Source of the DNA: Stropharia rugosoannulata
Taxonomy: Eukaryota > Basidiomycota > Agaricomycetes > Agaricales > Strophariaceae
DNA length: 64,000 nucleotides
Direction of reading: 5' to 3'
Assembly: GCA_028532985.1 (NCBI GenBank)
Contig: JANCIK010000006.1
Span: forward strand, 2,108,001 to 2,172,000
A program made the position numbers and the translations under genes. Below are positions 40,045 through 63,281 of this stretch, one piece after another (positions within the stretch are counted from its first letter, which is position 1; every line of letters begins with the position of its first letter). The notes below the pieces were generated by a model. It saw only the letters and a list, made by a program, of their open reading frames with translations, searched no databases and was not told the origin of the DNA.

Positions 40045-40104
40045 GTAAGTATAACTGTCTCTAATTATTCATCTGGCTGATGTTAATGACTGAAATTTGA
40101 ATAG
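40045..40104 (+). other. Likely 5'-UTR intron
   Basis: A GTAAGTATA donor at 40045, a TTAATGAC/CTGA branch-like element and an AATAG acceptor at 40104 lie 16 bases before the start codon of the next gene. An intron in the leader is the simplest reading. Confidence 0.5.
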
Positions 40105-40120
40105 GTTTGGAGATATCACC

Positions 40121-43512: not shown

Positions 43513-44140
43513 ATACTCTTAGTATAACAGTCGCTGAACGTCAGACTAATAGCCAGTCCGGGCCCTAGAGCCTCTTCCCAGATGTCGCGGCCAAGGATAT
43601 TTTTGTTTGTCTTTTCTTAACAGGATCATTACAGAGTCAAAGGATCAACAAAGAATGATACCTCTGGGATCCAGGGTATTATCGAAGAATTGACAAAGTT
43701 TAGTACTTCTGGGACTCAGGGTACTATTTCTATTGCGTTATCTCAATATCATCTCTATCTGCTTTGGAACCCACAAATCAAAACTAGGCGTAAACGAGGA
43801 GTAACGCCCCAAGCTCGGCCTATACTCTTAGTATAACAGTCGCTGAACGTCAGACTTATAGCCAGTCCGGGCCTTAGAGCCTCTTCCCAGATGTCGCGGC
43901 CATGGATATTTTTGTTTGTCTTCTATTAACAGGATCGTTACAGAGTCAAGGGATCAACAAAGAATGATACCTCTGGGATCCAGGGTATTATCGAAGAATT
44001 GACAAAGTTTAGTACTTCTGGGACTCAGGGTACTATTTCTTTTGCGTTATCTCAATATCATCTCTATCTGCTTTGGAAACCACAAATCAAAACTAGGCGT
44101 AAACCAAGCGTAAATGAGGAGTAACGCCCCAAGCTCGGCC
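43513..44140. repeat. Two tandem direct copies of a ~310-bp unit
   Basis: Copy 1 at 43513-43821 and copy 2 at 43822-44140 both begin ATACTCTTAGTATAACAGTCG and end at AAGCTCGGCC. They differ by a few substitutions and a 10-bp duplication near the end of copy 2. High identity implies recent duplication. No coding potential or element ends recognised; it could be a satellite unit or a tandem MITE. Confidence 0.85.
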
Positions 44141-46922: not shown

Positions 46923-47436
46923 ATGAAGGATTCAACTCATTCCAACTCGAAGTCACCAAGCAGCCGTTCGAGTTTCGGACTCTTGGAGTCGCCTACTGCA
47001 GGTAATGAGCCAATAGCTTTAAGTCTTGTCATAATATTACTAGTATCATTGACCGATTGTTTGTCTATAGTAGCAGCAGCCTGTCTCTTGGCTATTGCAA
47101 ATGCCCCCATCGAACCATCCAATGCAAATGCTACGAGGTCCAACTTACCCCAAGTCCGTCCTAAGTTTAGGCCGGCGCCTCCAAGAAATCAAGCGAATGC
47201 AGCAGGTACGTCCAGACTTATGATATTAATTAATACTACTGGTACTAATACTCAACCATTTGTCTATGGAAACAGCGGGCCCTTCGAGACTTACACATGT
47301 GGAGAATCATAACAACTTTGTTGACCACACCGAGCTCAACCCAATCCCGCAGCCTAACTCCTATGGATTTCAACTTCAATTCCTTTCGGAATCTAAGCGC
47401 CAGGAAATCGAAACATGGGTTGATGCCGTTGAACGT
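46923..47436 (+). pseudogene. 5' half of a small host gene interrupted by the retroelement
   Basis: Exons 46923-47001, 47074-47205 and 47276-47436 join in frame (124 codons) and end in ETWVDAVER, where the 5' LTR begins. Reading on into the LTR gives a stop almost at once. The missing 111 codons continue in the same frame after the 3' LTR, at 63282. The N-terminus is Ser-rich, followed by Pro/Asn-rich sequence. The second part is helical. Together they would form a 234-residue protein of no recognised family. The gene is broken by a single recent insertion and is otherwise open. Confidence 0.8.
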
Positions 47437-48648
47437 TGAGAGGGCTGCTTTTTGGCTATGGGTGTAAACAGTCTGAAGTCCCAGTGGCGGGACAGCTGCG
47501 CGCGGGAAACACAGAGGGACTAGAGTGGAGCCTGACTCATAGTCTATAGCTATCAGCGCGCTTTATGACTATAAGCGCCTGCGCGCACCGCATTGCGAGA
47601 GAGATCGGTCAGCGAGCTGCACAGCCTAAAGTGCATAGTCTGGTCATCCGTGCGAGCGATCGGAGAGGCGTAGAACGGTTAAGCACCAGCGAAGTGCGGT
47701 GTGAGTACAGCTGAGCGAGTACCAAGGGCGGTGTGAAGGGCTGTGCGCGCATCTCATGTGCGCGCATCGCAAAGGCAGAATTTGCCTAAGTCCACACATC
47801 ATGTGACCGTGGCGGCGCGCATCAAAAAGACGCGCAAAAGCCCGAGGGAACAAACGACATGCGTGCAGCGAATGCCAAGGGATCAGGACACTCGAAGGAC
47901 AGCCCGGATGCGATGCGCGGACCTTTGGCCGTGCATTGCTAGTATTTACTTTACCTTATTATTAGTACACATGCGCACATCGCATATAAACCTGTATCCT
48001 TGTCTATAGTAATTTAAGCAATTGTCTACCCACTAGATCTGTGTGCTGGGTTCTGTCCCAGGCCGTCAGCGGGCTGTGTTTAGCTTTTGTTAGGGTTTTA
48101 ACTGTGAAGTGTTTGTGAATCATAGGAGTTTTGGATAGCTTCTGGCCACCGGGTCATTTGGAGAGCTCAGTGAGGAGTCAGTACAAACGTGTACGGAAAC
48201 TCGCACTGTAGTGTTTAGACTGTGAGACTGCACCGCCGGGTGAAAGACTTTGGAGAGTCTTGGGATTGTTGGACTTTGGAGAGTCCGCGCATAGCACGAG
48301 GTCACCGGACCCGGAAGTGCGCGCAGCGAAGCCGTTCGCTAAAACAACTTATTTCATTCATCATTTTGCCTAGTGCACGCCACTAGCAACCGGGCTCTAT
48401 CCGAGAATTACTAGAATTAAACCCCTCCTTACAAACGAACTTGCAGGCACTACTTGCTGTTACAAAGACTAGAGGACACGAGGTGCGCGCATCGCACGCC
48501 CAGAACGGGAACCAGGGCAGAGCATAGATTATACTAGCCATTTAGTTGAGGGCGTTCACTCGATCTAAGGGATAGGATCTCGCTCCGCTGGGTGTGTGTG
48601 TGTGTTGTGTTTCGCGATTTCGAGTCTAGCTACGCAGTAGACCTCACA
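47437..48648 (+). repeat. 5' long terminal repeat
   Basis: It is 1,212 bp long with TG...CA ends. It differs from the 3' copy at roughly twenty positions, nearly all between about 47810 and 48055; the last ~590 bp are identical. Several differences are CG in the 3' LTR and TG or CA here. It carries five copies of TGCGCGCA (for example 47580, 47744, 47759). The promoter and polyadenylation site expected in an LTR cannot be pinned down by eye. Confidence 0.93.
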
Positions 48649-48650
48649 TC

Positions 48651-48668
48651 TGGAGCCCACCGCGAGGG
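48651..48668 (+). other. Primer-binding site (tRNA complementarity)
   Basis: TGGAGCCCACCGCGAGGG starts two bases after the 5' LTR. TGG is the complement of a tRNA CCA end. The implied tRNA would have U at position 73 and a GGTGGGC 3' acceptor strand; U73 is typical of tRNA-Cys, but the tRNA is not identified. Confidence 0.7.
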
Positions 48669-48946
48669 GAAGGTTCAGAAATCTCAATTAGTGTTTTCGA
48701 ACTACGGCTTGCGCCTATTACAATAAATTACAAAAATTTCAAATAAAACGGGACGAGTAACAAGCGAGGCAAATTTCCTGCGCCTTCATCGCTCGCCGAG
48801 CCAGAAGAAGCCAGACCATCCTTTGGAACGGTGCCTTCACGCGAGAGAACCACGAGGAGCAAGAAAAACGCTGAGCTGGTAGAGCCGTTGGTAATTACAC
48901 CGACGCGAGACAGAAAAGCAAAGAAAAGAGCGAGGAGGAAGCGCAG

Positions 48947-50491
48947 TTGCAGATCGAGACTCAGGGATTAGCGCAGCGCATCCCAGGTGCGCTCACCGAA
49001 AGCGACTCGGAATTAAGAGTAGGGACTAGTGGATTTTGGGGACCACCATCTGGCATTGAATCAGAAGACCAATTAGTGGACGGTGATATTACACTTGAAA
49101 CCGCACCATTCGGTACTTCTGATAGCCAAGCTACCCAAGACACCCCTCCTCCATTCTCGGAAGTATTTGGGACTGCTAAGACATCCGCGCAGCGCACGGC
49201 GGAAAATAGCGAAAGTGAGGCAGAGCGCGTAGCGAGAGATATATTTGAAGGAGACTTGTCAGATCTTTCAGAAAGCGAACGGAATTCACCCCCACGAGAA
49301 CCAGAAACTATGCCTAAGGATATGTCCATGCCAGTACGCGGTGCGCGCGGCGCGCCGAGCTTCGATCCTGCTGCAGAGCGCGATGAGCTGCCGCGGTACT
49401 TCGAGGACCTGGAGGATTGGTTTAAGCGCGCGGAGGTGACGGAGGACGATGAGAAGAGAGGATATGTAATCAAATATGTACCCATGCAGACGGCGGAGGA
49501 GTGGAAGAATCTACCAGGTTATGATACCAAAGGGTACGCTGAGCTCAAGAAAATGATTCTCAACGAGTACCCGGAGGTGATCAGCATTCAGACAGGGTCC
49601 ATCGCACGGCTCAAGAAGCTCTGCAAGGAGAATCAGCGCATCTCGGAGGAAGACCTCCAGGTGTTGCTGGACTTCAAGCGCGCGTTCTTGGCCGAGGCCG
49701 CTAAGCTCACGAAGGCGCCTACCCTGCTCGCGAATCATACCTTGGTGACTTACTTCACCAATAGTCTCACTGCGGGGTTCAGGGATCGATTGTTTAATAA
49801 ACTGGACATTGATTACACAACGCGCGCATTGTTCGACAAGTTCCTGACTGAGCGCAATATACAGTTCACTGCACCTACTGGGGTGACGGTAGAAGCGCGC
49901 ACTGAGGACATGTACCCTCTCAAACAGGTAGCCGAGATGGCGGAACAAATGGCCCGCACCAAGAACCCAAGCACTACGCTGAGCCTAGGGCGCGATAGCA
50001 CTGATGGACTCATGCCGGTGCCCGCCATCAAGACTGAGGCCGCGGATGTTGGTTCGCTGCGCGGAGAGATTGAGGACCTGAAAGGGTTCGTCGCTTCCTT
50101 CAAGGATACCTTGTCGCTAGTGGAGAAGACAGTGGCGAAGTCAAAGGAGTCGAGTAGGAAAGAGTTGGAGGACATTATCCGCAATGTCATGGCTGCGCGC
50201 GCCGCACCGATGTCGGTGCCTGTGCAACCAGTAGCCCCCATGATGCCCATGAGCGCACCGAGTTTTGGTGGAGCGCCGCCTAGGCCCTTCCAATACCAAC
50301 AACGCCCGGAGCCTCGCTGCTTCTACTGCAAGCAGACGGGACATGTGGTTGCTGAGTGCATCGTACGGCAGCAAGACTTGTCAGCGGGGAGGATTGTCAT
50401 TACTGAGGCGGGCGCTTACAGTTACCTGACGGGTCATCGATACCTTGGGACCCTTCGCCGCGATCAAAGAGCGCGTCGACGAATGGCATAA
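48947..50491 (+). CDS. gag: Gag polyprotein with zinc knuckle (frame-broken)
   Basis: The frame is 514 codons long. The first ATG in it is at 49311 (MPKDMSMPVRG), but the open frame and a related upstream frame suggest that the protein begins further left, across a 1-nt shift near 48935. A retrotransposon Gag-type helical domain lies at roughly residues 150-300 (YFEDLEDWFKRAE, ELKKMILNEYPEV, YFTNSLTAGFRDRLF). One CCHC knuckle, CFYCKQTGHVVAEC, stands near residue 457. Gag coats the element RNA and forms virus-like particles. The natural continuation (PFAAIKERVDEWHKK) is in another frame, so this frame ends prematurely. Confidence 0.8.
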   Translation: MQIETQGLAQRIPGALTESDSELRVGTSGFWGPPSGIESEDQLVDGDITLETAPFGTSDSQATQDTPPPFSEVFGTAKTSAQRTAENSESEAERVARDIFEGDLSDLSESERNSPPREPETMPKDMSMPVRGARGAPSFDPAAERDELPRYFEDLEDWFKRAEVTEDDEKRGYVIKYVPMQTAEEWKNLPGYDTKGYAELKKMILNEYPEVISIQTGSIARLKKLCKENQRISEEDLQVLLDFKRAFLAEAAKLTKAPTLLANHTLVTYFTNSLTAGFRDRLFNKLDIDYTTRALFDKFLTERNIQFTAPTGVTVEARTEDMYPLKQVAEMAEQMARTKNPSTTLSLGRDSTDGLMPVPAIKTEAADVGSLRGEIEDLKGFVASFKDTLSLVEKTVAKSKESSRKELEDIIRNVMAARAAPMSVPVQPVAPMMPMSAPSFGGAPPRPFQYQQRPEPRCFYCKQTGHVVAECIVRQQDLSAGRIVITEAGAYSYLTGHRYLGTLRRDQRARRRMA

Positions 50492-50777
50492 GAAGAATGG
50501 GCGCCAGCAGCAAGCGTATATGGCACCGGTCCATCCGTCATACATGGGTATGCCTCCTAGCATGGTATACTCGCAGATGTACCAACCGGCCAGTTCCTTG
50601 GACGAGACCTACGAGGAGCAGATACGCGCACTTCAACAAGAGTTGGAAAGTAAGAAGGCGTTCCTGAAGGAGCGCGCATCGGCAAAGACGCCTGAGGAGG
50701 TGATAGAGGAACAGCGTCAGTTAATAGCGACTATGAAAGCCGAACGTGACGCTGCGCTCAGTCAGGGTTTCGATTGA
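50445..50777 (+). CDS. Gag C-terminal segment in a shifted frame
   Basis: A 110-codon frame beginning in the overlap with gag (FAAIKERVDEWHKKNGRQQQ). It has Pro/Tyr-rich sequence followed by a coiled-coil-like Glu/Lys segment (TYEEQIRALQQELESKKAFLKERA). It appears to be the continuation of gag after one or two single-base shifts near 50410-50450. Whether these are true mutations, programmed shifts or indel errors cannot be told. Confidence 0.6.
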   Translation: MGPFAAIKERVDEWHKKNGRQQQAYMAPVHPSYMGMPPSMVYSQMYQPASSLDETYEEQIRALQQELESKKAFLKERASAKTPEEVIEEQRQLIATMKAERDAALSQGFD

Positions 50778-51363
50778 GTCTGATGAAGGGAAACGCGGGC
50801 AGAGTTATGCGTAGCGGCTCTGATAAACCCAAGAACCCGGAGGGCGCAAATAAGAAGTTACCAATCAGAAATATACCCAGAGCATCAGTTGAGGACGCGA
50901 GTGATGAGGAGGAAGATGAGTTGCGAGAAGTAGTGGAGGAGCAGCGCGCAGCGCACCAGTAAAGAAGAAAGTAGTATTTGAGGTTCCTGCAAAGGCTGGG
51001 CCTAGTGCACGACCAGCAGCAGTGCCATATGTAATGGTACCTCCGCTGCGCGTACCAGAGAAAGTAAAACCTAAGGTTAGGGAAGAACCCATACCTGTAG
51101 TAGAGAAGAGGAAACCTGCTTATAAGCTGCGCGCACCTATCGAAGATGAGGCGCAGGCTGACGCAGTCCTCAAGCACTTAGAAAATCAGAAAATTGAGAT
51201 CACGCAGGGCCAGTTGTTAGGCATCTCGACTGCAGGCTTCAGAAGAAAATTCGTTGAGCGCATAGTACCAAGAAAGGTACCATTGGATTTGAATACGATG
51301 CGCGTATTACAACTAGACTACGATGAAGAAGAGCGTGAAGTAGATGAGGCTATCGCGCGTTAG
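50774..51363 (+). CDS. Gag-protease linker region (two frames)
   Basis: Two adjoining frames, 50774-50962 and 51022-51363, encode charged, low-complexity sequence (VEDASDEEEDELREVVEEQR, then KVKPKVREEPIPVVEKRKPAYKLRAP). They probably form the spacer between Gag and protease in the polyprotein, broken by a further shift near 50960. The part LKHLENQKIEITQGQLLGIST resembles the helix preceding retroelement proteases in related fungal polyproteins. Confidence 0.5.
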
Positions 51364-51389
51364 CAGGGGAAGAAGAGGAAGAGGAGTTT

Positions 51390-52046
51390 ATGCAGATGGA
51401 CGAGCTACCAGTGGCCACTTTCCTTACTTGCTCAGATGAGCGCAGCGGACTGCAACCGGGGACCATCATCATGGAAGACCCGTACGAGCAGTACGTCTCG
51501 ACTCTGCAGCCAGGCGAAAAGCCTAAGGGACTTATTGTGGCGCGCGAATCGCACCATCTGAAGGCGGTATTTCCGCTCATCAACGGCAAGGGACACGCAG
51601 AGACGTTGCTCGACAGTGGGTCGCAGATTGTGTCAATGGCACAGGACACCGCTGAGCGCTTAGGACTTAGTTGGGACCCGGACTTCACTATACGAATGCA
51701 GAGCGCGAATAAGCAGGTGGAATCCACCAAGGGTTTAGCGCGCAATGTACCGTTTGTGTTTAACGGGCTGACAGTGTATTTACAAGTACATGTCATCAGC
51801 GCAGCGGCTTATGAGGTACTCTTGGGCAGGCCGTTCGAGATCCTCACGGAGAGCAATGTCAAGACGCGCGGTGATGGAACGGTTGAGCTTACGCTCACCG
51901 ATCCCAACACACAGCGCAAATTGGTCGTACCCACCTATAACCGAGGGTGCGGTCCCAAGATTGTGCAGCGCGAACCTAAGTTGCAGGACCCTGGCACGAT
52001 GGAAAACCCTAACGCAGATCAGGATTTTCAATCCTCGATGATTTGA
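51390..52046 (+). CDS. Retroelement aspartic protease region
   Basis: A 218-codon frame. The active-site loop ETLLDSGSQIVSM has the retropepsin D-S-G triad, and the flap/C-terminal part ends with YEVLLGRPFEIL, the usual second signature of gypsy proteases. It cleaves the Gag-Pol polyprotein. The frame overlaps pol by 1-4 bases (ATGATTTGATG), an arrangement expected either from a -1 shift or from one further indel in a formerly single polyprotein. Confidence 0.8.
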   Translation: MQMDELPVATFLTCSDERSGLQPGTIIMEDPYEQYVSTLQPGEKPKGLIVARESHHLKAVFPLINGKGHAETLLDSGSQIVSMAQDTAERLGLSWDPDFTIRMQSANKQVESTKGLARNVPFVFNGLTVYLQVHVISAAAYEVLLGRPFEILTESNVKTRGDGTVELTLTDPNTQRKLVVPTYNRGCGPKIVQREPKLQDPGTMENPNADQDFQSSMI

Positions 52047-55000
52047 TGCGTCAAGGAGAGGTCGCGTTGATGTTTGACAGAGATGATCGCACGGGGAAAA
52101 TAGAGATAGCGGGGTACGCGCCACCAAAGAATAAGAAGCGGTTTGGGAGCGCTGAGCTCAGGGATGTATACATGGCTCAAGCAGTACATGAGGCAAAGAT
52201 GGAGGATGATGAGAAAGAAAGAATATACAAGTATTTTCAGCAGCGCGAATGGCGCAAGGAGGAAGTAGTCAAAGGAGAACCTAGAGGACAGTTCCGCGCA
52301 TCGCACGAAGAACAGGTCCCTAGTAAGAAACAAGGAGTAACGCGTAAGCGCTTGACTGGCAAGAATGCCACAACAGTTACGGTGCTCGCAGGAAAGAAGT
52401 ATAAGCCAGTGGCTGAGAAAGTCAGGCCCGTCTATCAAGATTTACCAGAGAAGTTTAGGATAGTGAGGGAGATAAAAGGAGACCCACTAAAGGACATGCC
52501 GCAATTGTCACCACATCCGCCAGACTTCGTACCTACAGGTCGGTACACCGCTGAGCGCATGGAGGGAATTGACAAGGCGCATGAAGGGGATTTCCTGTGG
52601 CCCGAGGAGCGCAAGTTGGTGCATCAAGTTTTCATGCAGCAGAACGAGGCGTTCGCGTGGGATGACACAGAGAAGGGTAGATTCCGTACGGACTTCTTCC
52701 CTCCAGTAGACATTCCCACTGTAGAGCACACGCCTTGGGTATTGAAGAACATTCCGATACCACCTGGGATGTATGAGCGCGTATGTGAATTCATCGCCAC
52801 CAAGATTCGCGCAGGCACGTATGAGCCCTCGAGCTCATCGTACCGGTCGCGCTGGTTTACAGTAACTAAGAAAGACGGGGTCTCGTTCAGGATCGTGCAC
52901 AGTTTGGAGCCATTAAACGCGGTAACCATTGCACATTCAGGGCTACCTCCGGCAGCGGAGAGTCTAGCGGAACATTTTGCGGGGCGCGCATGTGGCGGCA
53001 TCCTGGACTTGTATGTTGGGTACGATGAGCGGCTGTTAGCTGAGTCCTCTAGAGACCTGACTACATTCCAGACACCGTTCGGTGCGCTGCGCTTAGTAAC
53101 CCTACCTATGGGATGGACGAACTCTGTGCCCATCTTTCACGAGGATGTCGCCTATATATTACGCGATGAAATACCTGAAGTTACAGAGCCCTATATAGAC
53201 GATGTACCTATTAGGGGACCTAAAACGCGCTATGAGTTAGAAGGAGGAGGATACGAGACGATACCGGAGAATAAAGGAATAAGGAGATTCGTATGGGAGC
53301 ACATGTTGAATGTCAACAGAATCGTGCAGCGCATGAAGTACTCGGGAGGAACATTTAGTGGAAAGAAGTCCATACTGTGCGCGGCTGAGATCGTAGTGGT
53401 GGGGCACTTGTGCACATACGAAGGGCGAAGGCCAGCACCTGATAAAGTGCATGCGATCCTCAATTGGGGGCCATGCAAGAACATCAGTGATGTGCGCGCA
53501 TTCATGGGTACAATGGGTCTGCTCCGTATTTACATCTCAGACTATGCGAAGCGAGCAGAGCACATACAGCGGCTATTGCGTGGGAAAGAGCCCTTTGAGT
53601 GGGGGCCCGCTCAGCAAGCTAGCATGGACTCGTTGAAAGACGGTGCGCGCAACGCACATTGCGTGAAACCACTGGATTACACATTGACAGGGCCGATTAC
53701 TTTGGCTGTAGACACATCATGGAGGGCAGTAGGATTCTATATTTACCAGCAGGACCCACAAGATTCGAAGAAGAGGGTATATGCGCGCTTCGGATCAATA
53801 CTGTTAACGGAACGCGAGCAGCGTTTCTCACAGCCCAAACGGGAGTTGTATGGACTCTTACGTGCGCTACAAGCCTGTTATTACTGGCTCATCGGTGCGC
53901 GCAAGCTGGTGGTGGAAACGGATGCCAAATACTTGAAGGGCATGTTGGAAAATCCGGGCATGGGCCCTAATGCGACTATTAATCGCTGGATAGATAAAAT
54001 ACTTATGTATCACTTCCAGTTGAAACATGTTGCGGGCAAAACCTTTGGTGCGGATGGTTTATCGCGTAGGGAAGGGCAACCTGGAGATGAGGCGTACGCG
54101 CACTCCGAAGAAGATGATGATCAGGAGGTGGGACCGCTCGAATACGAGAAAGTCTATGAAGATGACCCAGATCCCCTGGACTTTGAGGAATTCAAGGAAC
54201 AGATCGATGATCGCGGAGGGTATCTATATACAGGACTACTCAACGAGTTGTTTGAAGGTCCCACCACGCGCAAGTTACCAGAAGCGCGCTCTATAGGCTG
54301 TTTCCAGCAGGAGCTCGAGCGCGCACGGAAAGAGACGGAAGCGGAAAAGCGGGCCGTGCGGGACTTCATACAGAAAGAGAGTGTGCCGCTCGCGCAGCGC
54401 GAGTATTTAGAGAAATTCATACTAGCACATGCAATACCCGACTCCAAAATAGAGGATCTGGAGGATGAGGAGTACGATGAGCGCAACAGGACGTCTGCAG
54501 GAAAAGATATGGATGAGAAATTGCCGGTGATACGCTACTGGTTGCAGAATCCAACCACTAGGCCTAAAGGCATGACGGAGCGAGAATATCAGAACTTTAC
54601 GAGGAACGCTCGCAACTTCTTCTTAGACAGGGATGGGCGGATGTACCGGAGATCCATAGATGACGCGCATAAGTTGGTGATAGATCAGGCGCAGCGGACA
54701 CGCATGCTGCGCTCAGCGCATGACAGCTTGGGGCACAGAGGAGCGTACGCTACGCGCAAACTGCTAGCTGAGCGCTTCTGGTGGCCGGAGTTGGAAAGGG
54801 ATGTCTACTGGTATGTGAAAACATGTCATGTCTGTCAGTTAAGACAGAAGACTATCATCCAGATCCCGCGCACCGAGACACACACGCCGTCTATCTTCCA
54901 GCAACTACACGCAGACACTATGCACATGTCCCCGGCCTCCAATGGGTATAATTACATAGTGCACGGAAGATGTGCGCTGAGCTCATGGGCGGAAGGACGG

Positions 55001-55981
55001 CCATTAAAGAAAGAGAATGCCCGTGCAATAGCGCAGTGGATATTCGAGGACATTATCTGCCGTTGGGGCTGTCTGCAAGAAATCATCACAGATAACGGTG
55101 GACCGTTCCGCGCAGCGCTTAAGTACTTAGAAAAGAAGTATGGGATTACAGGGATTACTATCTCCGCGTACAACTCGCAAGCGAATGGAAAAATAGAGCG
55201 TCCCCATTGGGACATAAGACAGATGTTGTGGAAAGCGTGTGGAGGGACAGAGGGCGCGCACAAGCGTTGGAGTAGATTCTTCTACCATGTGTTGTGGGCT
55301 GACCGTATCACCGTACGACGAGGATTTGGGTGTTCCCCATTCTTCATGGTGACGGGCGCGCACCCCATACTACCCTTTGACATAGCGGAAGCGACTTGGC
55401 TGGTGAAACTACCAGATCGCGTACTGACTACAGAGGAGTTAGTAGGGTATCGCGCGCGCGCACTAGCCAAACATCGCGACACAGTAGAGGAGATGCGCGC
55501 ACGAGTATCAAAGACGAAAAGAGATGCGATCAGGGCATTTGAAAAGAAGCACTCGGCTAAAATCCGTGACTATGTGTTTAAGCCAGGAGATGTAGTGCTA
55601 ATGAGGAACTCGGGCATAGAATCCAGTCTGAACCGTAAGATGCTTGCACGATGGAATGGGCCTTACATCGTTATCGCACGAAAAGACGGTGGAGCATACT
55701 TAGTGGCAGAGATGGATGGCTCTGTGTTGAAGGATAAGGTGGCGGCGTTCCGCCTCATTCCTTACTTTGCACGAAGGCAGCTGCGCTTACCGGACGGTTT
55801 GGATGATATAATTGATCAGACCAAGGAGAACCTAGCTAAAATGTTAGAGGCGCCGGACTATGAGCCAGCTATTCCCAAAGATTATATCTTTGATGAGCCC
55901 GGTGTACCCTCGGGTAGCGGTGCGCTTACAGTGGAAGAAGATGAAGAAGACGAGGATGACTGGGGCGAAGAAGACACTTAG
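52046..55981 (+). CDS. pol: Pol: reverse transcriptase, RNase H, integrase
   Basis: A single open frame of 1,311 codons from ATG 52046. RT: LDLYVGYDERLLAE holds the first Asp and EPYIDDVPI (YIDD near residue 384) the catalytic pair. RNase H (about 545-675): AVDTSW, KRELYGLL, VETDAKYL and GADGLSRR supply D-E-D-D. Integrase: zinc finger HDSLGHRG...TCHVCQLRQ near 890-935, then the catalytic D in HADTMHM, D in ITDNGGPF and E in NGKIERP (near 955, 1016 and 1052). A GPY/F-type module (RWNGPYIVIARKDGG) follows, with an acidic tail EEDEEDEDDWGEEDT. All catalytic residues are present. The domain order is Ty3/gypsy. Pol copies the RNA to DNA and inserts it. Confidence 0.93.
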   Translation: MRQGEVALMFDRDDRTGKIEIAGYAPPKNKKRFGSAELRDVYMAQAVHEAKMEDDEKERIYKYFQQREWRKEEVVKGEPRGQFRASHEEQVPSKKQGVTRKRLTGKNATTVTVLAGKKYKPVAEKVRPVYQDLPEKFRIVREIKGDPLKDMPQLSPHPPDFVPTGRYTAERMEGIDKAHEGDFLWPEERKLVHQVFMQQNEAFAWDDTEKGRFRTDFFPPVDIPTVEHTPWVLKNIPIPPGMYERVCEFIATKIRAGTYEPSSSSYRSRWFTVTKKDGVSFRIVHSLEPLNAVTIAHSGLPPAAESLAEHFAGRACGGILDLYVGYDERLLAESSRDLTTFQTPFGALRLVTLPMGWTNSVPIFHEDVAYILRDEIPEVTEPYIDDVPIRGPKTRYELEGGGYETIPENKGIRRFVWEHMLNVNRIVQRMKYSGGTFSGKKSILCAAEIVVVGHLCTYEGRRPAPDKVHAILNWGPCKNISDVRAFMGTMGLLRIYISDYAKRAEHIQRLLRGKEPFEWGPAQQASMDSLKDGARNAHCVKPLDYTLTGPITLAVDTSWRAVGFYIYQQDPQDSKKRVYARFGSILLTEREQRFSQPKRELYGLLRALQACYYWLIGARKLVVETDAKYLKGMLENPGMGPNATINRWIDKILMYHFQLKHVAGKTFGADGLSRREGQPGDEAYAHSEEDDDQEVGPLEYEKVYEDDPDPLDFEEFKEQIDDRGGYLYTGLLNELFEGPTTRKLPEARSIGCFQQELERARKETEAEKRAVRDFIQKESVPLAQREYLEKFILAHAIPDSKIEDLEDEEYDERNRTSAGKDMDEKLPVIRYWLQNPTTRPKGMTEREYQNFTRNARNFFLDRDGRMYRRSIDDAHKLVIDQAQRTRMLRSAHDSLGHRGAYATRKLLAERFWWPELERDVYWYVKTCHVCQLRQKTIIQIPRTETHTPSIFQQLHADTMHMSPASNGYNYIVHGRCALSSWAEGRPLKKENARAIAQWIFEDIICRWGCLQEIITDNGGPFRAALKYLEKKYGITGITISAYNSQANGKIERPHWDIRQMLWKACGGTEGAHKRWSRFFYHVLWADRITVRRGFGCSPFFMVTGAHPILPFDIAEATWLVKLPDRVLTTEELVGYRARALAKHRDTVEEMRARVSKTKRDAIRAFEKKHSAKIRDYVFKPGDVVLMRNSGIESSLNRKMLARWNGPYIVIARKDGGAYLVAEMDGSVLKDKVAAFRLIPYFARRQLRLPDGLDDIIDQTKENLAKMLEAPDYEPAIPKDYIFDEPGVPSGSGALTVEEDEEDEDDWGEEDT

Positions 55982-56104
55982 ATGTGTGAGCACCGTAGGA
56001 AGAAAAGCGACCACAATATAATATATTGGGTAAAGAAGACGGGGAATACAGAGAGGGCTAGCTACAGATGCCCTTTAAGGCAGCGCATTATTGAGCCAGG
56101 CTAT

Positions 56105-57377
56105 CTACTGGGCCGGTTTGTCCTCGGTGGCAGTAACGCCAGTAACGTCGAGGCTGCGCTGCAGAATGACAAGCTGCTCGACGAGGAGCGCGCGGCGCTT
56201 GAGGATGAAGTCGACCTTGTGGAGATCACAAATGATCTCTGCTTGTAAATCACCAATGAGGCGGCGCGTCACCAACTCGGAAGGGTTACCCGTATTAAGG
56301 GGCTCCTTAAGGAGGTTAGCGGCGGCATCAAGACAAGCATTGACCTTGTCATTGTCCAAAACAAGAGAAGTGCCTGAGGGAGAAAGGTTAGAAAAGATTA
56401 GTAAGAGAACGGTGCGGTGCGCGCACCTTGCATAATAAAAGGAGAGTCGGGGAACGTAGGAACGCCCTCTGAGCCCAGCCTGGCTTTCTTAGGAGAGGCC
56501 TCACCTGCAGCGGCGTCACGGAATGAGCGACGAAGCTCGGTTTGACGATAAGTCATGCCTCGACCAAGGGGACGAGAGCGGTAACCAGGAGTGTCTCCGC
56601 GCTCGCGCTGGTATTTCTATAAGAATCTAAGTGCGCGCAGCGGAGACGGGTCAAACACACACCTGTTTAGGAGTATCAGGAGGCGCGGCGCGCTTCTTGT
56701 TAGGGCTCGGCTCGGGTGTATGCTGCCTGCTGGGAGGACCTCCCTCAGTCGCGGCTTCAACTTTATCGTCGAGGGCCATCTTTTTGAGGAGCATGTAAAG
56801 TTGCATGTTAGTGATGTCTGGTAAGAGACCAAGGTTAGCCACACCTTGTCATCGTCAGAGTCAGGAGATGTAGTACCTCCAGGCGCGGAGGCGGTTTCAA
56901 GGTCCGCAGTTGCGGAACGCGTAAGAACGCGAACGTTGCGCTGCGCGCACCAAAAAGGGGATTAAGTATAGAAAGGGTTAGGAGAGGAATATGAGCGCAC
57001 AGGTCCAGTAGGGGTATGGGTGCGCTGACGAGAAGCGGCAGCCTTAGCCTTGAGGACTTGTTCATGCAAGTTGATGAATGCGTTGGCAGGGGAAAAGGAG
57101 CGAATGTGGTGGTCAGCCTCGGCGGCGTATATATGGCGCGAGTCTCATTGAGTATCTCGATAGCTTCATTGTTGTTTATAACGCGAGTGATACCGCCGTC
57201 GCTGTCGCGCCAGCGGTTCTGCAATCGTGCCAGACGGAATCAGTAACATACAACAAAGGAACCGCGCGATGCGCGCACCAAATCGACAGCAAGCAGCTCC
57301 AGGCTGCCGGTATAATTCGCAGGAGTGGCAGAGGCCAACCCACGAATGTCCTGGATCAGCGAGCTGATGCTTGACAT
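56105..57377 (-). CDS. Antisense cargo gene 1 (spliced, unknown)
   Basis: It runs opposite to pol. It starts at MSSISSLIQDIRGLASATPANY (57377) and ends TEDKPAQ-stop at 56105. Predicted introns lie near 57281-57223, 57000-56942, 56666-56620 and 56430-56375. Each has GT-AG ends and restores or nearly restores frame; two small shifts remain (near 57130 and 56840). Exonic blocks include NRWRDSDGGITRVINNNEAIEILNE, AFINLHEQVLKAKAAASRQR, LYMLLKKMALDDKVEAATEGG and YRSRPLGRGMTYRQTELRRS, with a helical C-terminus (LIGDLQAEIICDLHKVDFILKRRALLVEQLVIL). Composition suggests an RNA- or protein-binding scaffold, but no family is recognised. Every predicted intron carries TGCGCGCA. Confidence 0.55.
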
Positions 57378-57916
57378 TGGTGAAGTTGAAAAGAGGAGCA
57401 TGAGTAGTAGCCATAGTGGTGGTTGAGAAAGTAGGAATAAGATGCGATGCGCTCATACAGAGACGGCGAGCGCTTATATAGCATTCACTGAGATGATCAG
57501 CGCTGCGCGCAGCTAGTGACTGAGCAGCAGGCCCAAGGAGTTAAGAAAAGAGGGACTCAACAAAAGGTCCAGATGGGTCATAGCACAAGGCTACACCTGT
57601 CTGACGTTACATTCACGGAGATTGAGTGGGATGGAGGGGACCTGAATACAAGAGCCCATATAGCGACAAGAGGTGGGAGGATCGTGCGCGCATCGCAGCA
57701 AAAGGGTGCGCGCATCAAAAGAGATGCAGGTCTTTCCCCGTTTGGGAAAATGATGTCTGCTTTGGGATTGATGCCGAAAGTGCATAACAATGTTACCCGA
57801 CAGTCTTATTTCAAATACAGGGTCATGACACATGTACCAAGGAATAGATGCTAGCTATGAGTATAGATAGTTATCAATGAAAAGACAGCAGAGTGTCAGT
57901 TCGGGAATTAAACATC

Positions 57917-59008
57917 CTAAGAAGTGATGGTCAGGGTCAGCGCAGCACATGAGAAGAAGAGGCCTACAGGAAAGAATTCCTCCTGATAAAAGACCTGGGC
58001 GGCATAGTGAAGTTGTTGGAAGTGTTCAGAGTGAGGGAGGGTGCCGTAGCGCTCTGCATCAGTGGTACCACACATGCGCAGGACGAGCTCGCTATAGTGA
58101 AGTTGAGCGCACAAGTGCGAGATGCGAGGCGAATGACTGGTAGCTTCGGTTAGCGCCAGTGCCCGCTACAAGGATGTCAGAGCTGTGCACGAGAAGGCTG
58201 GAAAAAGGGGACATGCGCGCACCGCATGGTCTTGAACATGACGCATCATGTCTAGGCAGACGGTCATGGGGAGCAGCGGTTCAGTCGCGGCCTCAAGAAT
58301 AAAATGAAGGGCGCCTATGTAGATGCGGCAGACGCGCTCATGGTCATCAAGAGGAATATCAGCTAGCGCCCGCTTGGGTAGAGCAGCTAAGCGCAAGAAG
58401 GAAGGATCGGACCTTGCGCGTTGAAGGAGATTACTTTCGGTATCGAAGGAGGGCATGATGATAAAAGACATGTTCATTTGAAGGATCATATATAGCACTA
58501 AACGATCCATCAGAGCCGCGCACGGGCTCAATCGTAGCTAATATCATCTACTACAAGGGCAGCGTCGGGATCTGTGTCTAAAATGGCGGTCCCTGTTGGT
58601 TTCGAGGGTGGGAGATTGTGAAAAGGCATGCCAAGATGGCTGTACCGATCGAGAATGTGAAGAGCGGCATTGCTGAGCATGCGCGCATCGAAATGATCAT
58701 CGCTGAATCTGCGCTGAGCGCGGCCTTCGTAAAACACGATCGTCATGACTAAAGACAGGTATTGGCGGTTGAAATCGATAAAGCGCAAAGGCAGTGTAAT
58801 GCGATCCTGGAGGAAAACGTCAGCAGAGGAAGCGCTTGCATGAACATAGGGACTTTACCAGTGCGCGCACGAGGGACTGAGCAGACTGTAGAGGAAAGTG
58901 AAAAGGGCCGTTGTCGCAGTCCTCTGCGAGCTCCGCATGAACGGCGAGTTGTCTCAGTAAAACAGTGAATTGGCGAGCAACAGCGGTGCGCTGATATCGG
59001 AGAGCCAT
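57917..59008 (-). CDS. Antisense cargo gene 2 (spliced, unknown)
   Basis: It starts MALRYQRTAVARQFTVLLRQLAVHAEL at 59008. A textbook intron (GTAAAG...CTGAC...CCAG, about 52 nt near 58855-58805) joins LVRAL to DRITLPLRFIDFNRQYLSLVMT. Further blocks are FDARMLSNAALHILDRYSHLG, SDPSFLRLAALPKRALADIPLDDHERVCRIYIGALHFIL and LHYSELVLRMCGTTDAERYG, ending at a stop at 57917. A GTGCGCGCA-led intron lies near 58215. Two junctions need an extra shift. The protein would be helical and soluble, of about 300 residues; no known domain. The overall gene structure, on the strand opposite to the element's genome RNA, matches its neighbours. Confidence 0.5.
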
Positions 59009-59051
59009 AACAGAGAGTAAAGAAACTCTCAACTGGGGACAGTTGAATTTA

Positions 59052-59067
59052 TAGTGGGGGGGAGAGA
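59052..59067 (+). other. Internal polypurine-tract copy
   Basis: ATAGTGGGGGGGAGAG, preceded by GGACAGTTGAATTT, closely matches the tract and its upstream context next to the 3' LTR (GGACAGTCAAGATTTTAGTGGGGGGGAGA, in two parts). It lies immediately upstream, in antisense terms, of cargo gene 2. It could act as a second plus-strand primer or mark a former element end. Confidence 0.6.
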
Positions 59068-59508
59068 TGGCCTAGCCAAGCAGAGATAAATCTAGCAGCT
59101 TAAGGAGATACGGCAGAAGGATCAGAAGTGCAGGGTAGAAGTAGCAGTGGGCTAGCGGATACGCATATGCACATCACTTCATATGCGCGCATCGCACTGA
59201 TACTCGCCCAAGTACTGTAGGAAAACCGGAACAGAAGTTGATGGGCACATACAAGCAAGCGTGCATTCCTAATGTGCGCATCGCACTTGTACTCGCTCAA
59301 AAGAAAGCTAGCTGTTAGGGATTACCTTAAGAAGAAATAAAAATGCTTAGGATCACACAGGAGGAAGATAAGAAGAGAATTGTAAATTCCAAAGCATATA
59401 ATACTAGACAAAGCTACTCTACATATGCTAGATAGAATAGTAAGGGAGGGCACAAGAAAGAAAGATAAAAAGAAAACAGGCGCCAAAATGCGCGTCCCGC
59501 AGCAAGAC

Positions 59509-61500
59509 TCAGGTCTCCATATTATCGCCCTCGTTAACAGCCTCTTCTTCAGCAGAGGCCTCGGGGCTTGAGTCGTCGACAACGACGGGAGAAGACTTGT
59601 AGGATCGAACAGGCGCCTTGCCTTTGCCTTTACCCTTGCCTTTATTTTTAGAAACCGAGGCGCGGACCTTGGAGGCTTTAGAAGGTTGGGGGGCGGGGAT
59701 GAAAGATGAAGGATCTTGACGAGGGTGCGCGGGATCGTAAAAGGAGGAAGAGGGAACGAAGTCGGTCGGATGGTCGGGGTCCAGAGGCTGGCAAAGCGCA
59801 TCGTATGACGCGCAGAGAGCAGGGAGATCCATATGACGCAAGGCGTCAAAGGTCTCGCAATCAGTGAAACGCGCGCCTATCACGACGTTCGTAGGGAGGG
59901 TCGCAGCCATGGCTTGCGCAAGCTGGACGAGCTGGATCAGCTCGGCGAAGTACAGGCGCTGAAGGCCTCGGCGGGACTCTTCCGCGGCGCGCGCCTGCTG
60001 ACCATAGGCCTCGAGACGAGCGAAGGAAGCTTGAAGTTCTGAAAAGAAGAGAAGTTAACAAAGTGGAAGGAAAAGTAAGATAAAGGATGCGCGCATACCA
60101 CGGGGAGAAGTCCGATGCCAGCCAGAAGTCCCCTCAAGGGCACTGTCGAGTTCGGTACTGGTCATCGTATGGAGACAAGGGCCCTGATTGCTCAAGCGAC
60201 AACTCGCGCATTTCCTGCCAGGGCCGCGCAGGAGACAAAATGTCTTGTGAGAAGCGGTATCGGAAGACTCGTCCTGAGGACGCCCGCAAAGAGAGCAAGA
60301 AAACCCGGGCTAGGGTTGGGAAAGAGTTAGCTAGATAAATACAAATTTTAAAAGGGAACACGAGACGTACGATCACGGCAGCGTTCAGCTGCTCCTCGGA
60401 AGGCAGTTGGCGCATCTGAATGGCGTCAGGCAAGGGCTTGCCCGCCAAGGCAAGCGACGCGGAATATACGCCGGGGAGGAGATTATAGATAGGATATGTA
60501 GACTGGTAGGCAACTTTTGAGTTGTCCACGCCTACCAGACGAGGAAGCTCGGGGAGGCCACTGGGGACCACCTCCAAAGGCACCACCTTAGTGCGCGACG
60601 CGCGTTTCTTGGAAGTGGGGGCAGAAGTGCGCGTACGAGAAGGACCGGCTACGGCCTCTTGGATCACTAGAAAAGCATCAAGAAGAAAGAAAAGGCCAGT
60701 GATTAAGGAAACGTTACCAGAAGTCTCGGGGGCGGAGCGCGTACGCTTAGCCAATGGAAGGTCGGGGACTGGCAGGGACGAAAGGGGTACATGAACAGTG
60801 CGCTTGCGCTTGGCAGGCGCAATGGGGGCAGGCGCAGTAGGGACTGGTGAGGTGCGCGCAGAAGGCACCGGGGAAGGGGAAGGGGGCGGTGGAGTGGATG
60901 ATGCGCGCGTTTGTTCGGGCGGGGGCGGGGGCGCGGCTGTTGTCTCGACAGTGCCAGAAGCCTCCGTTCCTGGCGCGGCCATTTCTATGTCGGATGGCGC
61001 CAGGGGGATGTACTGCAAACGGGGCTCTGGCTGAGCCCCCGGCGACCAAGACAGAGGGAAGGCGCTAGCGAAAGCGACCTTGTAAGAAGTCAGCTGTAGA
61101 GGATCTGTTAGCGCACATGATAAAGAAAATGAAAAAGGGGACTTACGGGTTTTAGCTCGGGGTCGGGCTCGGTGAACCATAAGGCGCGCTGGGTTATGTC
61201 CTCCGAGTTCCATCCAAAAATTGGGTCGTCGTCACCGGTGGCCAGGAGGGACAACAGGAGAACCAATTCGCGCGTTCCTGCGTGGTGAGTGGCGTCGATA
61301 GGAAATGCGCGCACATGGTTTTCGACTGCGAGGCGAAACGTTCGCGAAGGGACACGGGTGGTTAACTTCCTCGGGCTCAGCCGGTCACGGCCGCCCAAGT
61401 CCTCGAAAATGTCGTATTGGGCTAAGACGGGCGGAGTCGATGGAAATGATCCCGCGCGGTCAAGGCGCGCTCTTCCTGTTGAACCTTGAGTAGCTTGCTG
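59509..61500 (-). CDS. Antisense cargo gene 3 (spliced, Pro-rich, Cys cluster)
   Basis: Five exons with GT-AG introns: donors are after DPELKP (near 61146), after PETSG (60719), after NAAVI (60370) and after RTSPR (60100), with the stop at 59509; the 5' end near 61500 is uncertain. The first exon encodes VLAQYDIFEDLGGRDRL and FRLAVENHVRAFPIDATHHAG. The second encodes a very Pro/Ala/Thr-rich tract (TSPVPTAPAPIAPAKRKR). Then come KVVPLEVVPSGLPELPRLVG and a short cysteine cluster KCASCRLSNQGPC. A helical coiled segment follows (LQASFARLEAYGQQARAAEES), and last a Lys/Gly-rich tail (KNKGKGKGKGKAPVRS). The Cys cluster plus coil recalls fungal transposon-associated proteins with C-x2-C-x6/7-C motifs; function unknown. 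The last intron starts GTATGCGCGCAT. Confidence 0.6.
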
Positions 61501-62054
61501 ACGCCTCGGAAAGCCATGGAGCACTTGTGGTCTAGGATGGGAGAATAGAAAGGGAAGCAGTAAGGATAGGTAAAAAGAGGACGAGAAAGAAGAAGGAAAG
61601 GTAGCGTGAATGGCTGCTTTATATATGGCAGGGAGGAATAGCAAAAGAAAATTCTGGAGTATGAGAGAAGCGGAAGGCGGTGAGCGCATGTCGAGTAAAC
61701 TTACCGGCAATATGCTAGAACAGCGTAACGCCAAAAGAAGGTCCAGCAAGGATCAGAAAAGGAGAAGAAAAGACCTGACTAGGCAAATGACCCAAGAAGG
61801 AAGTCAGCGGGAGGTACGGTGCGCGTATGAGTGCGGTGGCGGTTGCCTAAAATAAACTAGTCGAGAAAAGTCGGGCTGGGGATACCTGAAAAGGAAGGAA
61901 AGAGGATGGATAGCGATAGTGACTCCGGCGGAGGCGCCGTAGTAGCCGCGTAAGGCAGTAGCTGAGCCGTAGGCAGGAAAACGGGATAATGGTGAACTGC
62001 TATCAAAGATGAGATGCGCGCATCTGAAGTTGACTGAGGACAGTCAAGATTTTA

Positions 62055-62066
62055 GTGGGGGGGAGA
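62055..62066 (+). other. Polypurine tract next to 3' LTR
   Basis: GTGGGGGGGAGA ends exactly where the 3' LTR starts (TGAGAGGG). It is the expected primer for plus-strand synthesis in LTR retroelements. Confidence 0.8.
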
Positions 62067-63277
62067 TGAGAGGGCTGCTTTTGGGCTATGGGTGTAAACA
62101 GTCTGAAGTCCCAGTGGCGGGACAGCTGCGCGCGGGAAACACAGAGGGACTAGAGTGGAGCCTGACTCATAGTCTATAGCTATCAGCGCGCTTTATGACT
62201 ATAAGCGCCTGCGCGCACCGCATTGCGAGAGAGATCGGTCAGCGAGCTGCACAGCCTAAAGTGCATAGTCTGGTCATCCGTGCGAGCGATCGGAGAGGCG
62301 TAGAACGGTTAAGCACCAGCGAAGTGCGGTGTGAGTACAGCTGAGCGAGTACCAAGGGCGGTGTGAAGGGCTGTGCGCGCATCTCATGTGCGCGCATCGC
62401 AAAGGCAGAATTTGCCTAAGTCCACACATCATGTGACCGTGGCGGCGCGCATCAAAAGACGCGCAAAAGCCCGAGGGAACGAACGACACGCGCGCAGCGA
62501 AATGCCAAGGGGCTGGAACACTAGAGGGAAGCCCGGATGCGATGCGCGGACCTTTGGCCACGCGTTGCTAGTATTTACTTTACCTTACGATTAGTACACA
62601 TGCGCGCATCGCATATAAACCTGTATCCTTGGCTATAGTAATTCAAGCAATTGTCTACCCACTAGATCTGTGTGCTGGGTTCCGTCCCAGGCCGTCAGCG
62701 GGCTGTGTTTAGCTTTTGTTAGGGTTTTAACTGTGAAGTGTTTGTGAATCATAGGAGTTTTGGATAGCTTCTGGCCACCGGGTCATTTGGAGAGCTCAGT
62801 GAGGAGTCAGTACAAACGTGTACGGAAACTCGCACTGTAGTGTTTAGACTGTGAGACTGCACCGCCGGGTGAAAGACTTTGGAGAGTCTTGGGATTGTTG
62901 GACTTTGGAGAGTCCGCGCATAGCACGAGGTCACCGGACCCGGAAGTGCGCGCAGCGAAGCCGTTCGCTAAAACAACTTATTTCATTCATCATTTTGCCT
63001 AGTGCACGCCACTAGCAACCGGGCTCTATCCGAGAATTACTAGAATTAAACCCCTCCTTACAAACGAACTTGCAGGCACTACTTGCTGTTACAAAGACTA
63101 GAGGACACGAGGTGCGCGCATCGCACGCCCAGAACGGGAACCAGGGCAGAGCATAGATTATACTAGCCATTTAGTTGAGGGCGTTCACTCGATCTAAGGG
63201 ATAGGATCTCGCTCCGCTGGGTGTGTGTGTGTGTTGTGTTTCGCGATTTCGAGTCTAGCTACGCAGTAGACCTCACA
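62067..63277 (+). repeat. 3' long terminal repeat
   Basis: It is 1,211 bp long, TG...CA, and matches the 5' LTR apart from about twenty mostly clustered differences. It keeps CG at several sites where the 5' copy has TG or CA (for example TGCGCGCA near 62600, TGCGCACA in the 5' LTR). Flanked on the right by ACGT and then host exon. Confidence 0.93.
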
Positions 63278-63281
63278 ACGT

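Follow-up and report, generated by a model that had tools for sequence, protein, structure and literature searches.

Evidence for a conserved antisense module of spliced genes in a Ty3/gypsy-type retrotransposon of Stropharia rugosoannulata

The window analyzed in this study is a stretch of 64,000 nt of the agaric Stropharia rugosoannulata (contig JANCIK010000006.1, positions 2,108,001 to 2,172,000; G000:C6:2108001-2172000 in our numbering). It contains a 15.8-kb retrotransposon with long terminal repeats (LTRs) on the plus strand (47437-63277), recognized by its paired LTRs, a target repeat and pol. With a probability of about 0.8, judged from the sequence, this Ty3/gypsy-type element carries, antisense to gag and pol, a conserved module of four protein-coding genes that have promoters of their own and contain spliceosomal introns. 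A first-pass annotation of the window had placed an LTR element with intron-bearing antisense genes at 56000-62066. The LTRs, the target repeat and four modeled genes bear this out, and the coordinates are right. The multi-exon genes are real and their count, given as ‘at least three,’ is amended to four (A, B1, B2, and C). The label ‘cargo’ is replaced, since selection and the presence of the block in a second subfamily suggest genes that have long been conserved components of the element.

The four spliced genes were modeled on the minus strand of 55982-62066, between pol and the 3' LTR, in the order A-B1-B2-C and with one to four introns each:

59509-61517, minus strand: gene A by the splice model, 592-612 amino acids (aa) in open copies (L010, L012, L023, L025)
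61517-61147, 61093-60718, 60666-60371, 60309-60099, 60038-59509, minus strand: exons of gene A, exon 4 with a six-cysteine cluster; introns of 53, 51, 61, and 60 nt, the 51-nt intron 2 being doubtful (in frame)
61618-61625, minus strand: TATA box TATATAAA, presumed promoter of A, starting 108 nt before its ATG
58528-59008, minus strand: gene B1, 142 aa; exons 59008-58859 and 58806-58528, intron of 52 nt
59045-59053, minus strand: TATA box of B1, starting 45 nt before its ATG
57917-58456, minus strand: gene B2, about 160 aa; exons 58456-58223 and 58165-57917, intron of 57 nt
56105-57414, minus strand: gene C by the splice model, 365 aa in open copies such as L019, L021, L023, and L024
57414-57279, 57218-57001, 56940-56663, 56616-56427, 56373-56105, minus strand: exons of gene C; introns of 60, 60, 46, and 53 nt
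57473-57480, minus strand: TATA box of C, starting 66 nt before its ATG

No sense open reading frame (ORF) of at least 150 residues is listed in 55982-62066. Gene B2 is preceded only by TATATAT, 38 nt ahead of its presumed start, which was set at MPS because the similarity to the second subfamily (family 2) begins at that point. Among the family 2 loci inspected, TATA-like boxes precede B1 and C at four of four and A at two of three. The B1 stop, which is conserved, lies 71 nt from the B2 start (58528-58456), and the two reading frames possibly share one message. We also considered B1 and B2 as one fused gene and rejected this, since the B1 stop TGA is kept in all 17 copies and the candidate acceptor is absent in some.

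Further copies of the block were searched in the genome (47,968,167 bases, 20 contigs). A DNA search with 59000-61000 gave at least 57 matches (best 40 of 82 candidates scored), and the 20 best-scoring other places, which are not a random sample, were taken as 10-kb loci for comparison with the window copy (W). Whole-genome protein searches with pieces of A, B2, and C gave 100, 94, and 99 matches, respectively, which merge into 98 A loci and 94 C loci. C lies downstream of A on the same strand within 9 kb at 84 of the 98 A loci, upstream at three, and nearby on the other strand at one. A B/C place follows 200-492 bp beyond pol at no fewer than 24 of the best 40 pol places and no pair is oppositely oriented (best 40 of 137 pol and 133 B/C candidates, misses being uninformative). 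As far as the copies examined go, this comparison shows that the antisense genes travel with the element and that their splice sites are kept in nearly all copies. Protein identities split into two groups, family 1 (with the window element) and family 2, most members of the latter being 46-59% (A piece), 55-62% (B2), and 81-89% (C) identical, within limits drawn by eye. More distant relatives of C are found at G000:C9:2790150-2790371 (73%) and G000:C13:2204766-2207781 (70%); the one on C13 resembles the whole block and perhaps belongs to a third subfamily. A family 1 LTR (95% identical) is inserted in gene A of a family 2 copy (L036:5914-7124), and family 2-like gene A starts lie at L020:9726-9989 and L021:8816-9166; the elements thus cluster or nest.

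Selection on the antisense frames was estimated as dN/dS (nonsynonymous over synonymous divergence) with Nei-Gojobori counts on realigned copies, pooled after a length filter. This filter kept 19 of 21 sequences for A (L019 and L022 dropped), 17 of 21 for B (L012, L014, L016, and L017 dropped) and 12 of 21 for C (L012-L014, L016-L018, L020, L022, and L027 dropped); for the pol end, the 13 of 21 that cover it were used. The copies are related, hence not independent, and no P-values are attached. Pooled dN/dS in the antisense frame is 0.22 for A (synonymous difference, pS, 0.56; nonsynonymous difference, pN, 0.20), 0.187 for B1, 0.207 for B2, and 0.093 for C, and 0.085 for the pol end. Shifted frames give 1.2-1.7 (A), 0.62 and 2.2 (B1), 0.97 and 1.7 (B2), and 1.5 and 3.3 (C). 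In A and C, each copy has 5-33 stops when read in a shifted frame and mostly none in register. In-register stops occur in three of 19 copies of A, two of 17 of B1, two of 17 of B2, and one of 12 of C; since broken copies are included in the counts, the dN/dS values are likely upper bounds for live copies. Short indels (up to 30 nt) number three in exons and 11 outside for B, and four and 17 for C. For A, 40 fall in exons (18 in threes) and 64 outside (15 in threes), or 23 (17 in threes) and 57 (14 in threes) without W, L009, L011, L015, and L017. This codon-level comparison shows all four antisense genes to be held by purifying selection as protein-coding, in the antisense frame only.

GT and AG are each present in 18 of 19 copies at A intron 1, in 17 and 19 of 19 at A intron 2, and in all 19 at A introns 3 and 4; both are kept in 17 of 17 copies in B1 and in B2, and in 12 of 12 at all four C introns. 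Differences between copies within introns amount to 0.31-0.49 in A, 0.13-0.15 in B, and 0.08 in C (four introns pooled), with a matching pS of 0.56, 0.18-0.19, and 0.165, so that introns diverge at half the synonymous rate or more. The first-pass annotation had proposed a check of other copies for dN/dS below 1 and retained introns, and had named a lack of excess exon-frame conservation over introns as the finding that would speak against its proposal; the copies display the former (0.09-0.22 in frame, GT/AG nearly invariant) and the opposite of the latter. Across the genome, no match with up to three mismatches was found for any of the junctions that splicing would create at C intron 1, B1, and B2 (family 2 lying beyond the reach of the patterns), against 58 matches for the unspliced junction of C intron 1, which is a control for this intron alone and not for B1 or B2. 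There is thus no sign that any copy was derived from a spliced antisense transcript, which is what one would expect if splicing of the genomic RNA passed over antisense introns, and the persistence of antisense introns by strand logic, as put forward in the first-pass annotation, fits these counts.

Four loci of family 2 (L035-L038) were compared. They keep the same arrangement and the A-B1-B2-C order, with a pol end that is 90-91% identical at the protein level. Segments of A are 34-63%, of B1 52-71%, of B2 62-79%, and of C 42-78% identical between the families. The B1 intron lies at codon 49 or 50 in phase 0 in both families (family 2 B1 has 140-141 aa), C intron 1 lies at codon 46 in phase 0 in both, and A introns 3 and 4 match in phase (0 and 1). 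These intron positions rest partly on tblastn segments for family 2, where the automatic models of A failed or were short at three of the four loci (one with the inserted LTR) and those of B2 and parts of C went astray.

The sense strand and the ends of the element are organized as follows:

47433-47436 (left) and 63278-63281 (right): target site duplication ACGT, 4 bp
47437-48648, plus strand: 5' LTR (TG...CA), from self-comparison of the window
48875-50491, plus strand: gag-type ORF with a CCHC-like knuckle spotted by eye
51348-52046, plus strand: aspartic protease ORF (PF13975, E 3.5e-9; PF13650, E 3.6e-8)
52013-55981, plus strand: reverse transcriptase (RT)-RNase H-integrase ORF, 1322 aa (PF17917, PF17919, PF17921), with RNase H at residues 530-666 and the integrase zinc-binding domain at residues 890-946
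62067-63277, plus strand: 3' LTR, from self-comparison of the window

The two LTRs are 98.2% identical over 1214 columns. An alternative target repeat of 5 bp (AACGT) is obtained with the LTR end shifted one base earlier. A Pfam scan of the gag-type ORF gave no match. The gene order protease, RT/RNase H, integrase is as in Ty3/gypsy, paired LTRs with a target duplication are likewise present, and we take the element as Ty3/gypsy-type by its domain order. RT_RNaseH models match the pol of the window copy; RVT_1 and rve are unreported at E 0.001, and rve (PF00665) occurs in at least two of 120 listed homologues. The pol ORF has 1411 homologues in a collection of 5.8 billion proteins, and no pol relative was confirmed among 25 and 28 pattern matches in viral and genome contig collections. 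Directly after the 5' LTR, TGGAGCCCACCGCGAGGGG (48651-48669) resembles a primer binding site; it is putative and no tRNA is assigned.

Gene A lies in the most variable part of the element, between two polypurine tracts:

59130-62025: hypervariable segment surrounding gene A, with a sharp boundary on the right and a gradual one on the left
59029-59064, plus strand: internal polypurine tract with a 7-bp hairpin, overlapping the B1 TATA box
62030-62065, plus strand: 3' polypurine tract with a 7-bp hairpin, from a motif scan

Pairwise difference inside the segment is mostly 0.2-0.48 but falls to 0.12-0.16 around 61.7 and 59.2-59.5 kb; it is 0.02-0.18 in the flanking bins shown. The mean synonymous difference (66 pairs, 12 copies) is 0.560 for A, 0.156 for pol, 0.144 for C (pairs with data), and 0.186 for B. 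At the 3' polypurine tract, the difference jumps from 0.059 to 0.286 between adjacent 50-nt bins, and the left edge slopes from 59.57 kb down to the internal tract at 59.07 kb (0.058), both in eight of 11 aligned copies. Distances in A correlate with those in pol at r 0.19 and in B at r 0.42 (12 copies). W and L011 have a synonymous difference of 0.07 in A, 0.24 in B, and 0.18 in pol, and the A difference is 0.00 in the pairs W/L009 and L023/L024 with pol differences of 0.14 and 0.12, respectively; by these mismatches, the element is a mosaic. Divergent A segments have probably recombined onto similar backbones by template switching in reverse transcription.

The hairpins sit just upstream (in the sense direction) of the tracts, with the stems TTGACTG/CAGTCAA at the 3' tract and TCAACTG/CAGTTGA at the internal tract, which differ by two paired changes. 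With a filter of at least six pairs, a scan of 25 sources gave 22 instances of the 3' hairpin motif, in 21 of them, and 23 of the internal one, in 23 of them; two of the latter carry a single change in the stem. Three perfect hairpins with a 7-bp stem and a 4-nt loop exist in the element, two of them being those of the polypurine tracts; the folding energies are unremarkable alone (z -2.0, -0.2, 0.3, and -1.6). The hairpins may help to bound the exchanged piece. An exchange of the A segment exactly at both tracts was also considered and is weakened by the gradual left edge and the varying break points.

Each subfamily also has its own dispersed motif, found in LTRs, introns, spacers, and codons. 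For family 1, this motif is TGCGCGCA:

47580-63120: 31 dispersed copies of TGCGCGCA, the two LTRs holding 5 and 6

There are 33 copies in the window, with a mean of 1.2 and a maximum of 4 in 100 window shuffles, and the 31 in the element compare with 0.5 expected under a first-order model. Density peaks in the C-B spacer (6.0 per kb) and in the LTRs (4.1 and 5.0 per kb) and is lowest in gag-pol (0.7 per kb). The motif is palindromic with weakly oriented flanks (GCGCATCG, 12 vs 5). Its count in the fetched family 1 stretches is 2-25, CpG-poor copies being among the lowest. It is absent from the family 2 loci L035, L037, and L038, and the six copies in L036 probably came with the inserted family 1 LTR. 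The loci L035, L037, and L038 hold 7.5-7.9 copies per kb of the family 2 motif, CCGCTG (66 in L037, where 7.1 are expected), whereas the part of the window that lies outside the element holds 0.35 per kb. At these three loci, the sense strand shows this motif as CAGCGG in 58 of 69, 57 of 66, and 59 of 71 cases, across LTR, spacers, and antisense genes. C intron 1 bears the motif of its own family in each subfamily, the other introns in part. A motif varying with the A type inside family 1 was tested and failed, the motif being constant across A types. CpG observed/expected is 0.72-1.04 in eight copies, with L018 (0.72), L026 (0.73), and L027 (0.81) being depleted, and CpG transitions account for 20% of the differences; the depletion suggests that silenced copies are methylated and, in these three, points to decay as well.

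In searches for a function, neither the products A, B1, B2, and C nor the family 2 products A and B1 had a Pfam match above the cut-off (lines with E up to 5 listed); the weak lines below it are Stm1_N for C (E 2) and TetR_C_30 for B2 (E 0.12). No homologue of A or C was found in the collection of 5.8 billion proteins, a weak negative as the collection probably favors uninterrupted frames, and a profile of the gene A cysteines and C-terminus matched no sequence in the Protein Data Bank (PDB). By eye, gene A shows basic clusters and a Pro-rich linker. Its six cysteines, kept in both subfamilies, are spaced C-x2-C-x14-16-C-x8-C-x2-C-x7-C, and those of Zn2Cys6 factors C-x2-C-x6-C-x5-12-C-x2-C-x6-8-C. 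The wrong cysteine spacing and the lack of a Pfam match at E up to 5 led us to reject gene A as a classical Zn2Cys6 factor (PF00172). The structure model of A exon 1 (mean pLDDT 57, the predictor's per-residue confidence) is too poor for use, and so is, overall, that of the cysteine cluster and C-terminus (mean pLDDT 57), although its C-terminal helices reach about 70-92. Foldseek with the latter model gave no match in the PDB below E 0.001. The C-terminus of A is predicted to be helical, partly with confidence. Our best guess for the antisense products is that they would be nuclear nucleic-acid-binding regulators.

We explain the conserved block as follows. The genomic RNA would run the opposite way, leaving the spliceosome blind to the antisense introns before reverse transcription, and the introns would survive. 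After integration, the antisense genes would be transcribed from their TATA promoters, and their proteins would serve the element. Less certainly, these proteins may be nuclear regulators that bind nucleic acids, with A as the fast-changing one, and one of them may recognize the dispersed family motif, countering silencing or marking the element's own RNA or DNA. The boldest form of this proposal is a self-recognition system, in which antisense proteins read the subfamily motif and free kin from silencing or select kin for copying, the fastest-changing gene being swapped between backbones; we offer it tentatively and consider it unlikely as it stands. A possible, if doubtful, competitor for the last part is that the motifs are no recognition sites and arise incidentally, through mutation, codon preference, or CpG content. 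Both family motifs contain CpG, many family 1 half-sites fall in gag-pol codons (GCGCA, 49 in 7.1 kb), and TGCGCGCA, rarest in gag-pol, is still present there at 0.7 per kb. A by-product accords poorly with the concentration of the motif in the C-B spacer and the LTRs, its 31 copies against 0.5 expected, the respective motif in C intron 1 of both subfamilies, and the sense bias of the family 2 motif across LTR, spacers, and antisense genes.

Several observations weigh against the conserved antisense module or its proposed role. The gene models come from a simple splice predictor and inspection, and the predictor depends on its settings (gene A of L025 has 647 residues under another penalty). 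Set against other copies, W itself is only partly intact, its reading frames being disrupted in exon 1 of gene A and in exons 1-3 of gene C; the predictor skirts C exon 3 in L009 and L010, too. The 51 nt of A intron 2 can be read through in frame in 19 of 19 copies and may be coding. A intron 1 (61146-61094, codon 125) is present in family 1 only and missing from family 2, a difference that, by comparison of the two families, is an intron gain or loss within a retroelement. As to exchange and recognition, the A distances correlate with those of C at r 0.79, A and C thus often traveling together, and the break points relative to the window copy vary (near 59.8 kb in L011, near 59.3 kb in L018). 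That the motif is the same whatever the A type counts against A as its sole reader; B1, B2, C, or a host factor might take this part. No domain, fold, or homologue backs any function.

Two other origins of the block were weighed. It could be a passenger that does not serve the element: a nested DNA transposon, or genes of the host, trapped in the stretch from pol to the 3' LTR and replicated with it. Products without a known domain and the broken frames of the window copy lend themselves to this reading. We regard it as very improbable, because C is constrained like the pol end and A, B1, and B2 about half as strongly, the same block recurs in two subfamilies, the block holds the conserved polypurine-tract motif, and no inverted repeat of at least 60 nt was found in the window (shorter ones are possible). 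The antisense strand could also act as RNA that regulates gag-pol, through copy-number control or small RNAs, with the frames being secondary. Regulatory roles of retroelement antisense transcripts are discussed in the available part of the literature (PMC7264820), and the TATA boxes point antisense. The constraint is codon-shaped, however, with dN/dS of 0.6-3.3 in the wrong frames, splice sites are kept, short indels are scarcer in exons than outside (three vs 11 in B, four vs 17 in C), and the block is located past the end of pol; RNA regulation is accordingly improbable as the main role. We prefer a conserved module of antisense protein genes.

Elsewhere in the window, we found a Plavaka transposase fragment (28098-29258, minus strand; PF18759, E 2e-16) and, by Pfam, a polyketide synthase dehydratase piece (23466-24251, minus strand) and a UPF1 N-terminal domain (18451-19035, minus strand). 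The Plavaka fragment and the intron lengths of 46-61 nt are in keeping with a fungal, probably basidiomycete, genome. An open frame of 862 residues (40094-42682, plus strand) has no Pfam match, and a 292-nt direct repeat lies nearby (43513-44113).

Comparing the copies shows, over and above the logical argument, that several genes with introns can persist in a retroelement when they run antisense to its genomic RNA. This lifts a supposed limit on the content of LTR elements, offers a natural test of intron fate in retrotransposition, and indicates a set of helper proteins, so far unstudied, in a fungal retrotransposon. The hypervariable segment and the family motifs would open a silencing arms race in fungi to direct testing, and suggest that VANC-like strategies may have arisen independently in retrotransposons. 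No fungal element with several spliced antisense genes and no closer precedent for the internal polypurine tract was found in the literature searched (most subscription papers being outside the search), and the word ‘antisense’ is missing from the main text of the mushroom transposable element papers that were word-searched. The first-pass annotation knew of no characterized fungal case with several spliced cargo genes; this holds in the literature searched, though a single fungal antisense gene, brtn of Botrytis, has been published.

By its title, a 2011 study by Zhao et al. reportedly places the antisense gene brtn in a Boty-like element. Some retroviruses have an internal, central polypurine tract (cPPT). 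Unlike the cPPT, the internal tract described here lies within the antisense block, has a paired hairpin and is near one edge of the hypervariable segment, and its priming role is putative. VANDALs are DNA transposons, unlike the present LTR element with pol. Among fungal elements, the Boty-like or BcGypsy1 elements of Botrytis cinerea have an additional antisense gene, brtn, according to the accessible part of PMC8365987. They resemble the present element as fungal LTR elements with an antisense gene and differ from it in that brtn, compared by description, is single as reported against four genes here. A precedent for a nuclear protein is HBZ of HTLV-1, which is encoded antisense (PMC11963269, as far as excerpted).

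VANDAL elements of Arabidopsis combine a fast-changing protein, VANC, with a dense family-specific motif in one orientation, introns included (PMC5735166, in part), and VANC-type proteins read this motif and undo silencing (PMC5735166 and PMC10398659, in part). The present element likewise has a fast-changing protein gene and a dense family-specific motif, of which only the motif side is seen here. VANC motifs are mainly non-coding tandem repeats in the sections available (PMC5735166), whereas the present motifs are dispersed and include coding parts.

The plant Ty3/gypsy elements of the Retand lineage (also Grande and RIRE2) come close in layout. Their region between pol and the 3' LTR measures 2.9-6.6 kb and holds conserved antisense ORFs in many copies and species, 97% of the Retand clusters encode TRP28, and an own promoter is reported for gene23 of Grande (available parts of PMC11963269 and PMC7264820). 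Both have coding sequence in antisense orientation in the stretch that separates pol from the 3' LTR. Unlike in Retand, no TRP28 (PF04195) is detected in A, B1, B2, C or in family 2 A and B1 by Pfam at E up to 5. The Retand genes are described as ORFs, in main texts that do not contain the word ‘intron’ (PMC11963269, PMC7264820), whereas the element of S. rugosoannulata has four spliced genes and, unlike Retand as described, a hypervariable segment and a second polypurine tract.

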